Positions 15,298 through 18,343 of a stretch of 37,061 nt of DNA are shown here, in pieces. Below the pieces are notes generated by a model. That model ran no database searches, had not been told where the DNA came from, and saw only the letters and a list, made by a program, of their open reading frames with translations. The position numbers were made by a program, and so were the translations under genes. The stretch's first letter is position 1, and each line of letters opens with the position of its first letter. Source of the stretch: an uncultured Flavobacteriales bacterium (GTDB lineage Bacteria > Bacteroidota > Bacteroidia > Flavobacteriales_D > Parvicellaceae). The stretch spans positions 1 through 37,061 of the forward strand of contig CAJYBK010000004.1 of NCBI GenBank assembly GCA_913064955.1, written 5' to 3'.

Positions 15298-16134
15298 ATG
15301 AAATACTTTGTTTTTCCATTTTCGATACTAATAAGCGTTTTCTGTTTTAGTCAACATGTAGAAAACAGAACTCAAATCATTAACTACCTTCAAGCTAAAA
15401 TAAATACCAACCAGCCTTTGGTAGCTCACATTTTAGTGCCGCTTTGCGACAATGAACATCAAGGAATTGTTCCAACTTCCGCCTCTATAGGTAATGGCAT
15501 GGACCCTGATCACAATCTGTATTGGGCAACTAGTAAAGGTGTTAAAAGGTATTTTAAAGAATTGAAAGACTGGAAAATGGAACGCCTCAGTTACGACATT
15601 GGAGATAACATTCTACAACGTGTGACTTTTAGTAAATCTTTCCCCAATGGAGCCAAGGTTTACTTGGTTGCCGATGCGTACCGAGGCGACAGGATGCCGG
15701 AATGTTTAGATGATTATTTCAATTCCTTATCTGACCACAAAACAGATACCTTAATAATTGGCAATGATACAATTGGCATTAATGGTGGAGCAGATTTAGT
15801 TGCCTTTAATGGACACAACGGATTGATGGATGAAAATACCAAATTTGAGAAGGCTACCTCTCAAACAAGACCAAAGGATGCGGTGAGTATTTCATGCGCA
15901 TCCAGAGGTTATTTCAAAATAAACTATTTAGAAACTAACAGTTACCCTTTGGTGCATACCACAAACCTTTTGTACCCAGGAGCATTTATACTTGAAGGCA
16001 TACTTAACAAGTGGGCAATGTTAGGCTCGGATATAGACTGCAAAAAAGCAGCAGGAGAAGCCTATTACAAACACAAGCCGAAGTCAGGGCCGAATGGATC
16101 TCAGAATTTGTTTGATTATGGATGGGGGAGTTAG
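15298..16134 (+). CDS. Secreted protein of unknown function; possible clan-CD cysteine-peptidase-like (caspase/gingipain fold) signature
   Basis: Signal peptide MKYFVFPFSILISVFCFSQ (ATG 15298 preferred over TTG 15271). Hydrophobic-strand plus His 'ADLVAFNGHNG' followed by hydrophobic-strand plus Cys 'AVSISCASRGYF'. Confidence 0.6.
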   Translation: MKYFVFPFSILISVFCFSQHVENRTQIINYLQAKINTNQPLVAHILVPLCDNEHQGIVPTSASIGNGMDPDHNLYWATSKGVKRYFKELKDWKMERLSYDIGDNILQRVTFSKSFPNGAKVYLVADAYRGDRMPECLDDYFNSLSDHKTDTLIIGNDTIGINGGADLVAFNGHNGLMDENTKFEKATSQTRPKDAVSISCASRGYFKINYLETNSYPLVHTTNLLYPGAFILEGILNKWAMLGSDIDCKKAAGEAYYKHKPKSGPNGSQNLFDYGWGS

Positions 16135-16194
16135 GGCGCCTTTCTGGCTTTTAGTTTATTACTAAATATATTCTCCATTTAAATACTTTGGTAA

Positions 16195-16230
16195 CTCCTC
16201 CCACCAGCCCCCTCCAAAGGGGGAGTTGAT
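16195..16230 (-). repeat. GC-rich palindromic repeat, copy A (orientation -)
   Basis: ctcctcccaccagccccctccaaagggggagttgat; near-identical to copy C and the reverse orientation of copies B/D. Confidence 0.85.
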
Positions 16231-16307
16231 TTTAATTCAATTTGTATGTATTGCTTTAAATGGAGTTGTTTTGGTGACCTAGTATTCTTAACAAGAAGCA
16301 CAATGTG

Positions 16308-16342
16308 ATTCCCCCTTCGGAGGAGGATAAAGGGGGAGGAAT
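16308..16342 (+). repeat. GC-rich palindromic repeat, copy B (orientation +)
   Basis: attcccccttcggaggaggataaagggggaggaat; directly abuts the 3' end of the DUF559 ORF. Confidence 0.85.
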
Positions 16343-16741
16343 CTAGATTTTATCTAAATCCCCTTTCTGTTCTTTTAAACTTTCTACTATATAACACAAG
16401 GACTCATACACATCATCAAATTGGTTCAGCACTACTCCCTCTTCAAACCTTACAACAGTATAACCTAGTTGCTCTAATTTTTCTTGACGAATAGCATCTT
16501 TTTCTGCCTTAAAGTAATGTGAATTGCCATCTATTTCTACAATGAGATTTAATTCAGCGCAAAAGAAATCTACTATATACTTATTGATAGGCCTTTGTCT
16601 TTTAAAACCATAACCCAATTGTTTTCTGCTCAAAGCTGCTTTCCAAATAAATTTCTCTGCTTTAGATACACTTTCTGTTCGCAGTACTCCTGCAAACTCT
16701 TTTAATTTAGGATTGTAGTGGTTGTTTTTATTTGGTTGCAT
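16343..16741 (-). CDS. DUF559 domain-containing protein (Vsr/PD-(D/E)XK endonuclease-like)
   Basis: 'KLKEFAGVLRTESVSKAEKFIWKAALSRKQLGYGFKRQRPINKYIVDFFCAELNLIVEIDGNSHYF...DAIRQEKLEQLGYTVVRFEEGVVLNQFDDVYESL'. Start MQPNK at 16741 preferred; the longer ORF N-term 'MCVNQLPLWRGLGGGNFVISK' is a translation of repeat copy C. Confidence 0.92.
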   Translation of the reverse strand: MQPNKNNHYNPKLKEFAGVLRTESVSKAEKFIWKAALSRKQLGYGFKRQRPINKYIVDFFCAELNLIVEIDGNSHYFKAEKDAIRQEKLEQLGYTVVRFEEGVVLNQFDDVYESLCYIVESLKEQKGDLDKI

Positions 16742-16789
16742 TTCGGGGGAATGATTATTAAAAATAATAAACATTTTTGAGATTACAAA

Positions 16790-16829
16790 GTTTCCTCCCC
16801 CCAGCCCCCTCCAAAGGGGGAGTTGATTT
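16790..16829 (-). repeat. GC-rich palindromic repeat, copy C (orientation -)
   Basis: gtttcctccccccagccccctccaaagggggagttgattt; matches copy A, just upstream of the DUF559 start. Confidence 0.85.
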
Positions 16830-16903
16830 ACGCACACTAGTAAACCATGCTTAAACCAGATATCTTTCCTTAGAAATATAAACTAAATTGAAAACACAAT
16901 TTA

Positions 16904-16939
16904 TTTCCCCTTTTAGAGGGGGATAAAGAGGGAGGAAAT
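16904..16939 (+). repeat. GC-rich palindromic repeat, copy D (orientation +)
   Basis: tttccccttttagagggggataaagagggaggaaat; matches copy B. Confidence 0.8.
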
Positions 16940-16960
16940 TCCAACTAAACAAAACTCAGA

Positions 16961-18343
16961 CTAGAGAGCATTCAACTTTCCTCTATTCATCATCCTTTTC
17001 AATCCAATTCTCAAGAAGTAAAAACAAACAGCGGCACTGAGAACATCCGCAACAGGAAAAGCATACCATATACCATTGATACCAAAAAACGATGGTAGAA
17101 TTAAGACAATTGGAACTAGGAAAAACAGTTGTTTCGTTAAAGTCAACAACAGAGCAGGAATAGCTTTGCCTAGTGCTTGATAATAGCTAGCTCCTACCAA
17201 TTGAAAAACAACTAAAAAGGATGCCATAAAAATATAAAAAATAGCATCTGCAGCAGAAGGTGTCAAAGCCCAATCCTTCTCACTGAGGAACAACTTAGGT
17301 ATTTGATAACTGCCTAAAAGAATTGCAGAACATAATCCTATACCTATTACAAATCCTACTTTATTGGACAAGTCAATTACTTCCTTGACACGATCAAATT
17401 TCTTTGCCCCATAATTATACCCAGCAATAGGAACCAAACCCTGAGCAATACCAATCAAAGGAAAAAATGCCATCATAGAAATACGGTTAATAATGCCATA
17501 AACAGAGATAGCGTTTTCCCCACCAATTCCACTTATTTCACCGTACTTTAGTAAAGAATGATTTAACACTATGGTTAGCAAACTAATCCCTCCTTGTCTC
17601 AATACACTGATAGAGCCGAGTGCTACTATCTCATTTACTATTTTCTTTTGAAACTTAAAATACTTTGGAATAATTTTCAACTCAGTTCTCCCGGATAGAA
17701 AATAAAAGACAATGTAAGCACCGGAAGAAAAATATGAAAAAGTAGTAGCCCATGCTGCTCCTTCCATCCCCCAGTCTAAATAAGCGATAAAAACGGCATC
17801 TAAAATCATGTTCAAGACTGACGGTATGAGCAAAACCATCATGGCTTGCTTAGCCTTTCCCTCTGCTCGAAGGTTATTATTACCTGTCATCGCCAATGAA
17901 AGAAATGGCACGCCAATCATAGTGATGTAATAATAAGTGTTGGTAGGCTCTATCAAGTCACCCTCAGTGCCAAAAGCAGCCAAAATAGGTTCCATAAAAA
18001 CAAAACTTATAACTGCAAAAAAACTGATGATAAGCACCGCTAAAGAAATCTGATTATTAAAAGCCACTTGGGCTTTCTCCTTATCACCTGCACCAAATGC
18101 TCTTGACACAATAGACGAACCTCCGATACCGATGGCCATACCAAAAGAAGACATCAAGAAGGCAATTGGGGTAACGATGCTAATCGCTCCAATAGCTAGG
18201 TTTCCTATATATTTACCTACAAAAATGGTGTCTACCACCATGTTGATAGACATCAAAGCAAACCCAATTGCTGCGGGAATAGCTTGTTGAGCTAATAATT
18301 TGGAAATTTTTTCCGTTCCTAGTGACTCGGATTTTGTACTCAT
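16961..18343 (-). CDS. MATE family efflux transporter
   Basis: Two repeats of six TM helices; 'NMVVDTIFVGKYIGNLAIGAISIVTPI', 'GIGGSSIVSRAFGAGDKEKA', 'GIAQGLVPIAGYNYGAKKFDRVKE'. Confidence 0.94.
   Translation of the reverse strand: MSTKSESLGTEKISKLLAQQAIPAAIGFALMSINMVVDTIFVGKYIGNLAIGAISIVTPIAFLMSSFGMAIGIGGSSIVSRAFGAGDKEKAQVAFNNQISLAVLIISFFAVISFVFMEPILAAFGTEGDLIEPTNTYYYITMIGVPFLSLAMTGNNNLRAEGKAKQAMMVLLIPSVLNMILDAVFIAYLDWGMEGAAWATTFSYFSSGAYIVFYFLSGRTELKIIPKYFKFQKKIVNEIVALGSISVLRQGGISLLTIVLNHSLLKYGEISGIGGENAISVYGIINRISMMAFFPLIGIAQGLVPIAGYNYGAKKFDRVKEVIDLSNKVGFVIGIGLCSAILLGSYQIPKLFLSEKDWALTPSAADAIFYIFMASFLVVFQLVGASYYQALGKAIPALLLTLTKQLFFLVPIVLILPSFFGINGIWYAFPVADVLSAAVCFYFLRIGLKRMMNRGKLNAL

Follow-up and report, generated by a model that had tools for sequence, protein, structure and literature searches.

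Results

The locus and its palindromic units

The window, meaning the whole 37,061-nucleotide stretch of an uncultured Flavobacteriales genome analysed here, carries a gene of the DUF559 family in the interval between a secreted-protein gene and a MATE gene, enclosed by two inverted pairs of short GC-rich palindromic units. Each unit consists of a hairpin and a tail, and the features are as follows.

16126-16985, no strand: interval holding the cassette, bounded by the aligned flanking genes and measuring ~861 bp here and ~71 bp in the related genome G028
16195-16341, no strand: element A-B, a 147 bp inverted pair (tail-hairpin-spacer-hairpin-tail), non-autonomous and MITE/REPIN-like, with an interior homologous to a dispersed copy on contig C111
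16195-16223, minus strand: unit A, with C-run tail 16195-16207, hairpin 16208-16223 and a short linker
16311-16341, plus strand: unit B, with hairpin 16311-16326 (one mismatch), tail 16327-16341 toward the gene and a long linker
16343-16741, minus strand: DUF559 gene, 132 aa, predicted Vsr/homing-endonuclease-like PD-(D/E)XK nuclease
16791-16939, no strand: element C-D, an inverted pair of 149 bp whose ends form the terminal inverted repeat TTTCCTCCC / GGGAGGAAA
16791-16820, minus strand: unit C, with tail 16791-16804 toward the gene and hairpin 16805-16820
16907-16939, plus strand: unit D, with decayed hairpin 16907-16922 and tail 16923-16939

The arrangement of four GC-rich units in two inverted pairs around the gene is thus as the earlier note had described it, and the duplicated geometry that it gave as about 148-150 bp per pair is recovered with the spans listed above. 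Over 37 nt, units A and C share 97% identity, and they lie 597 nt apart, start to start. That these are the sole GC-rich palindromes of the window, and that they stand at the nuclease, is accurate for A and C, which alone across the 37 kb form stems with an arm of at least 6 and at least 80% GC; B and D are related to them and more decayed. By inspection, the ends of C-D are terminal inverted repeats, and unit C fits the three-segment layout of the BoxC/PIT/TM repeats, with a C-rich arm, a loop, a G-rich arm, a short linker and a second G-rich segment that could serve as third strand.

The open reading frame at 16343-16837 on the minus strand was identified as DUF559 (PF04480) by profile search (E 1.4e-27), and the window protein scores 96.2 bits against a curated cut-off of 20.6. 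As had been noticed before, the extended frame translates copy C. Because the GTG extension to 16837 merely reads through that copy, the ATG at 16741 is favoured from the sequence as the likely true start, and the part of the long frame that translates copy C is probably non-coding.

The nuclease

Four residues (E29, E69, D71, and H75) are invariant and a fifth, D58, nearly invariant in 56 DUF559 sequences, and all five are kept in the 132-residue window protein. A structure model built from an alignment of the window protein with the loci of the scan described below reached a pLDDT of 89.7. Its structural matches were 3hrl (NGO0050; E 6e-7), 3r3p, the homing endonuclease I-Bth0305I (E 1.3e-3, Foldseek probability 1.00), and, weakly, 1vsr (Vsr; E 0.05). 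The sequence profile search returned matches at E 7e-33 and 1e-6, the latter again to I-Bth0305I. As modelled, the window protein has a Vsr/EDxHD-type PD-(D/E)XK nuclease fold, and cleavage activity is predicted for it.

Copies in the host genome and an empty orthologous site

A pattern search of the 3.45 Mb host genome for the repeats, set beside its single DUF559 gene, recovered four recognisable inverted unit pairs. Two of them bracket the DUF559 gene, and the others lie at C111:8490-8636 and C305:3201-3298. By simple arithmetic, the probability of two among four elements placed at random landing within ~0.2 kb of a single gene of 0.4 kb is estimated at below 1e-6. Aligned with each other, the interiors of A-B and of the C111 pair score 66, where shuffled sequences reach at most 25, and the homology runs along their length; A-B is therefore one dispersed element rather than two palindromes that arose by accident. 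The host-genome pairs have a short linker (CAG/CTG/CTAG) at one end and a long linker (TTAAT/ATAAA) at the other. Matches to Y1_Tnp in this genome lie on contigs C79 and C16, and none was found on the repeat-bearing contigs C4, C111, and C305.

In G028, a complete genome of the same genus, the secreted-protein and MATE orthologues are adjacent, with the aligned flanks ~71 bp apart and no cassette between them; the empty site that the earlier note had envisaged in a close relative is therefore present. The two genomes are ~68% identical around the site, so an insertion junction or target-site duplication is not placeable there, and the comparison would fit either a gain of the cassette at the window site or its loss from G028. 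This relative has two DUF559 genes at other places. Its only two matches to the strict core of the repeat lie together, ~0.7 kb from one of these genes, which is surrounded by further GC-rich palindromes. Terminal inverted repeats, dispersed homologous copies, and an empty orthologous site are together what is expected of MITE-like elements.

Association of DUF559 genes with palindromes across bacteria

Species genomes were scanned at the protein level with an alignment of stand-alone DUF559 proteins. This yielded 80 stand-alone loci from many phyla, a sample biased toward relatives of the query, with 402 open reading frames from the same loci as crude controls. A hairpin with a 5' C-run and a 3' G-run lies within 150 bp of 66 of the 80 DUF559 loci and of 40 of the 402 control frames (10%); hairpins stand on both sides in 32 of 80 and 4 of 402, respectively. 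Stem density is 5.97 per kb at 0-100 bp from DUF559 and 0.10 per kb past 2 kb, and the 80-locus scan found zero stems of opposite polarity at 0-100 bp. No unit was found nearby at 14 of the 80 loci at the thresholds applied. The unit consensus is approximately (T)ACACACCCCTAA-CCCCTCT-loop-AGAGGGG-AAT, with a ACACACCCC-type C-run tail in the consensus of 86 units. Among 86 cases with a decided orientation, 69 have the tail of the nearest unit pointing toward the stand-alone gene.

That DUF559 genes lie closer to such repeats than random genes do is borne out by these counts. Equal repeat density at unrelated genes, which would have counted against a special link, was not seen, and the repeats concentrate at DUF559 genes. 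We regard the existence of the association as practically beyond doubt. The nuclease-plus-palindrome cassette proposed earlier for Bacteroidota is thus supported, but its confinement to that phylum is not: examples were recovered in Acinetobacter tandoii, Haemophilus parainfluenzae, Neisseria gonorrhoeae, Synechocystis, Picosynechococcus, and Photobacterium, as well as in Escherichia coli (below).

Stem-loops are common near gene ends, and copy B abuts the stop codon, as would suit palindromes that acted on the DUF559 gene simply to terminate its transcription or as regulatory hairpins. Units also stand upstream of the gene, however, are dispersed elsewhere, keep a strict C-to-G polarity, and in relatives lie inside coding sequence; moreover, earlier studies that PMC4666352 cites found TM/PIT repeats to have neither promoter nor terminator activity. 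We consider such a role very improbable, and on polarity, both-side placement, and dispersal we reject both terminators and chance as explanations.

Several individual loci show rearrangement. Tandem duplication of a DUF559 gene together with its palindromes was observed, as in a Pedobacter locus (L148, 6357-6700) where the flanking pair is duplicated along with the gene. In one complete genome with 11 DUF559 matches (G092), distinct copies have distinct palindromes. A frameshift-broken DUF559 gene lies between two units at L241 (1032-1465; G342:C3), as expected for decaying mobile elements, and at L244 (1401-1937; G275:C45) a tandem array reading MCTISTTMCNVYTN lies between two units of the same orientation. 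On two cyanobacterial plasmids (L259, 586-1053; L260, 571-936), DUF559 and its palindromes adjoin a DUF1156 gene in differing order, as though the cassettes had been inserted into one shared gene neighbourhood.

Repeat load, DUF559 copy number, and RAYT transposases

Repeats were counted in 346 Bacteroidia genomes with a degenerate unit pattern, the strict core pattern (matched in 16 of the 346) being too narrow, and the counts were set against those of DUF559. Of the 41 genomes with at least 20 repeat matches, 38 have DUF559 and three are without it (Fisher p 1.2e-10), in genome-level counts only partly corrected for phylogeny; at the level of genera the link holds with p 8.6e-10 (at least one match). 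Median repeat matches are 0, 2, 4, 14, 17, and 52 at 0, 1, 2, 3, 4, and at least 5 DUF559 copies, figures that overstate copy number because overlapping matches are included. When 19 stretches were picked by their repeats, four held DUF559 by profile (one known beforehand, one frameshifted). The partial rank correlation with repeats is 0.48 for DUF559 and 0.16 for Y1/RAYT transposases. RAYT was rejected as the driver, being a weak predictor once DUF559 is counted, with the Y1 genes of the host off its repeat contigs. It seems quite probable that DUF559 drives the spread of the repeats, by way of predicted cleavage and transposition. The earlier suggestion of a selfish system resembling REP/RAYT with a different nuclease fold accordingly stands on linkage, the empty site, and repeat load relative to copy number; mobilisation by the nuclease is the step that we infer.

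A separate pattern appears in genus g58 (G223, G245, G266, G199, and G146) and in g54 (G143), where the control backward-unit pattern is abundant (up to 63 matches) and the true pattern rare. These repeats are an unrelated GC-rich family of opposite polarity.

Co-evolution and a proposed tail-arm triplex code

On a tree of DUF559 from 56 loci, four arm types (CCCCC, CCCCT, CCCT, and GTCCCC) require 11 changes; 500 shuffles gave 22.9 +/- 1.7 with a minimum of 18, and shuffling within phylum gave 20.9. For host phylum the same tree needs 24 changes, and 24.6 after shuffling. Arm type tracks the DUF559 tree and host phylum does not; nuclease and palindromes therefore travel together across phyla.

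The tail, in turn, mirrors the arm, with C opposite C and A or T opposite T, a pairing that corresponds to the G.GC and T.AT/A.AT triads of a purine-motif triplex. The tail-arm match to this rule is 0.916, compared with 0.805 for reshuffled arms (z 11.4), and z is 0.2 under a control rule. When each locus contributes a single unit, the match is 0.911 against 0.806 (maximum 0.850). C-run lengths of tail and arm are also correlated (rho 0.67). A third-strand segment that covaries with its duplex arm across phyla suggests natural selection on a DNA triplex.

BoxC/PIT/TM repeats and ycjD in E. coli

BoxC/PIT/TM repeats have been known in E. coli since the 1990s and were later found in more than 260 genomes, without a function or a known means of spreading. 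The palindrome described here is this already known intrastrand-triplex repeat (PMC4666352). Holder et al. (2015) described its three-segment intrastrand triplex and listed 23 BoxC-type copies in E. coli MG1655, of which five are inverted pairs; triplex formation was shown in vitro, for the E. coli motif alone, no triplex was found at the E. coli repeats in vivo, and mobility functions were never found near triplex repeats in that study (PMC4666352). The window units share the layout with another arm sequence: their arms are of the CCCCCT/AGGGGG type and not the E. coli CCCTCNCCC consensus, and they fail the E. coli pattern CCCTCNCCCN3-6GGGNGAGGGN3GGGNGAGGG.

The E. coli gene ycjD (b1289) is a PF04480 member (E 1.4e-49) and ends 168 bp from copy no. 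9 of the published list (PMC4666352). It was found in 3,366 of 5,426 complete E. coli genomes. A clean empty site for ycjD was not found in the two ycjD-negative E. coli strains read, which have other genes there, and a Haemophilus DUF559 gene used as a DNA query gave no E. coli match. Repeat presence varies among strains: MG1655 has the whole BoxC pair between hrpB and mrcB, two strains have it collapsed to a single hairpin, and others lack it; between alx and sstT one strain keeps a single tailless hairpin. Two small E. coli records, apparently plasmids (NZ_CP117961.1, 231 kb; NZ_CP074792.1, 155 kb), have BoxC-type copies, and the repeats thus occur off the chromosome too. The named E. coli control genome gave no PF04480 match despite the K-12 YcjD value above; the control strain, or the filter of the first look, may miss ycjD.

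The single-hairpin collapse products resemble replication slippage, and they lend some weight to a reading in which DUF559 is a repair or structure-processing, Vsr-like nuclease, kept by the palindromes to deal with hairpins or triplexes, as RAYT, slippage, or recombination spreads the repeats. The modelled Vsr-like fold would suit such a role. So would the Caulobacter DUF559 protein VsrA, which accounts for a DNA-damage response in cells that lack a methyltransferase and has been proposed as a mismatch-repair nuclease (PMC12907096). On the other side, Y1/RAYT adds little beyond DUF559 in the repeat counts and the host Y1 matches lie off the repeat contigs. A mobile pair also accounts better than a housekeeping repair gene for how closely gene and palindromes are linked, co-evolve, and move together across phyla. 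We therefore think a repair role improbable as the account of the association.

In-frame cassettes in housekeeping genes

The window copy is intergenic, and in diverse Bacteroidota DUF559 and its palindromes also occur as in-frame inserts within conserved genes. About 68 (by eye) of the ~150 listed Bacteroidia DUF559 matches lie in open frames of at least 600 codons. The in-frame cases that were read (L083-L112), the top-scoring matches and not a random sample, include two sites in the leucyl-tRNA synthetase LeuRS, one in IleRS, two in methionine synthase (MetH), and one in RecG. Occupation is recurrent, the LeuRS, IleRS, and MetH sites being filled in different families, and also reciprocal: in L108 the first LeuRS site is filled and the second empty (16 aa), and in L095 the reverse holds (18 aa at the empty site). 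Stems flank the in-frame cassettes on both sides in 14 of 20, with tails outward. Tail direction thus differs between contexts, being mostly toward the gene at stand-alone loci and outward in the in-frame cassettes and in the dispersed pairs of the host genome, a difference that speaks against a firm assignment of the mobile unit. The nuclease cassette apparently often invades tRNA synthetases, methionine synthase, and RecG in frame. The MetH activation domain of L103 (G275:C198) holds a 26-aa stretch (SLSFGEGPGVRS) that appears to be a solo palindrome in frame, with no DUF559 there.

Such recurrence, with its reciprocal empty sites, is what would be expected of homing, in which DUF559 would cut a specific unoccupied sequence and recombination would copy the cassette in, the palindromes being cassette boundaries and the dispersed gene-less units by-products. 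In sequence and fold DUF559 also matches the homing endonuclease I-Bth0305I, which points the same way. The recurrence could, however, also come from horizontal transfer of whole genes, and units and gene-less pairs occupy many unrelated intergenic sites (23 in E. coli; PMC4666352), a dispersal that plain homing leaves unexplained. Homing is the main rival to the interpretation given below. As a general explanation we hold it to be unlikely, and it may have been a route of entry into conserved genes.

Discussion

Our preferred interpretation is that DUF559 nucleases and BoxC/PIT/TM-type triplex palindromes are the two halves of one selfish mobile system, in which the nuclease would recognise the unit and nick, and the host would copy; we put its probability at roughly 0.6. 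The association, the co-evolution, the dose relation between repeats and nuclease genes, and the presence or absence of units at orthologous sites are the observations behind it, and from these we infer recognition, nicking, and copying. Also in its favour are the tail-arm covariation, the dispersed homologous element of the host genome, the tandem duplications, the in-frame cassettes with reciprocal empty sites, the homology to I-Bth0305I, and the position of ycjD beside a BoxC copy. Against it weigh the 14 of 80 loci with no unit nearby, the three repeat-rich genomes that lack DUF559, the differing tail directions, and the published failure to see a triplex in vivo at the E. coli repeats (PMC4666352). 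The unit, a hairpin with a tail able to lie along it as a third strand, would mark the ends of the element. Most likely, the nuclease recognises its cognate folded unit on single-stranded DNA and nicks beside it, after which host replication and repair would copy the element to new places. Structure-specific nicking would then be the key step, a proposal to which we would give even odds. Gene-less inverted pairs could be spread in trans as non-autonomous passengers, much like MITEs or REPINs. In the window, where the gene lies between two pairs, the cassette would have arrived between the secreted-protein and MATE genes, unless the relative lost it.

More broadly, and at somewhat short of even odds, DUF559 may define an unrecognised, bacteria-wide class of mobile element with triplex ends, whose nuclease would read a tail-arm code, spread BoxC-type repeats in trans, and persist as an in-frame domain in essential genes of many lineages. 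DUF559, a widespread and largely uncharacterised family, would thereby gain a biological role. Since the candidate driver ycjD is present in E. coli K-12 itself, the spread of triplex repeats is directly testable. A literature search found no report of a link between DUF559 and palindromes; most subscription papers lie outside that search, and priority elsewhere is possible.

The comparison with known systems begins with the repeats themselves. BoxC/PIT/TM repeats resemble the window units in having a C-rich arm, a G-rich arm, and a second G-rich segment, in being intergenic, and in forming inverted pairs with two linker types, the type A and type B pairs of E. coli being similar to the short-linker and long-linker ends of the host-genome pairs. 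They also share with the present units a wide bacterial spread and presence in some E. coli strains and absence from others. In the published study they had no associated mobility gene, whereas the present units are tied to DUF559. Among proteins, E. coli YcjD, N. gonorrhoeae NGO0050 (3hrl), and Caulobacter VsrA belong to the same Pfam family as the window protein and share its modelled fold, and ycjD and the gonococcal gene have BoxC-type units nearby, as the window gene does. These proteins are known as uncharacterised, endonuclease-like, or proposed mismatch-repair nucleases, with no repeat link reported in the literature searched. I-Bth0305I (3r3p) is likewise a selfish nuclease with a related catalytic domain, but it is intron-encoded and lacks palindromic triplex ends and non-autonomous derivatives.

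Rickettsia palindromic elements (reviewed in PMC10969869) are ~150 bp long and lie in frame inside genes, like the in-frame cassettes of relatives. They differ in having no nuclease gene inside and in being restricted to Rickettsia and its relatives, and the window copy is instead intergenic. A parallel in organisation is that of REP and REPIN sequences with RAYT (Bertels & Rainey, 2011; PMC3116915), which likewise have palindromes in inverted pairs, dispersed non-autonomous copies, an enzyme gene flanked by cognate units, and co-evolution of enzyme and palindrome. The RAYT enzyme, however, is a Y1 HUH transposase, and that of the window a DUF559 protein of predicted PD-(D/E)XK, Vsr-like type. 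REP sequences have a GTAG/GTGG-type tetranucleotide by the stem, in place of which the consensus of the present 86 units has a triplex-competent C-run tail; and the DUF559 system, unlike REP/RAYT, invades housekeeping genes in frame.
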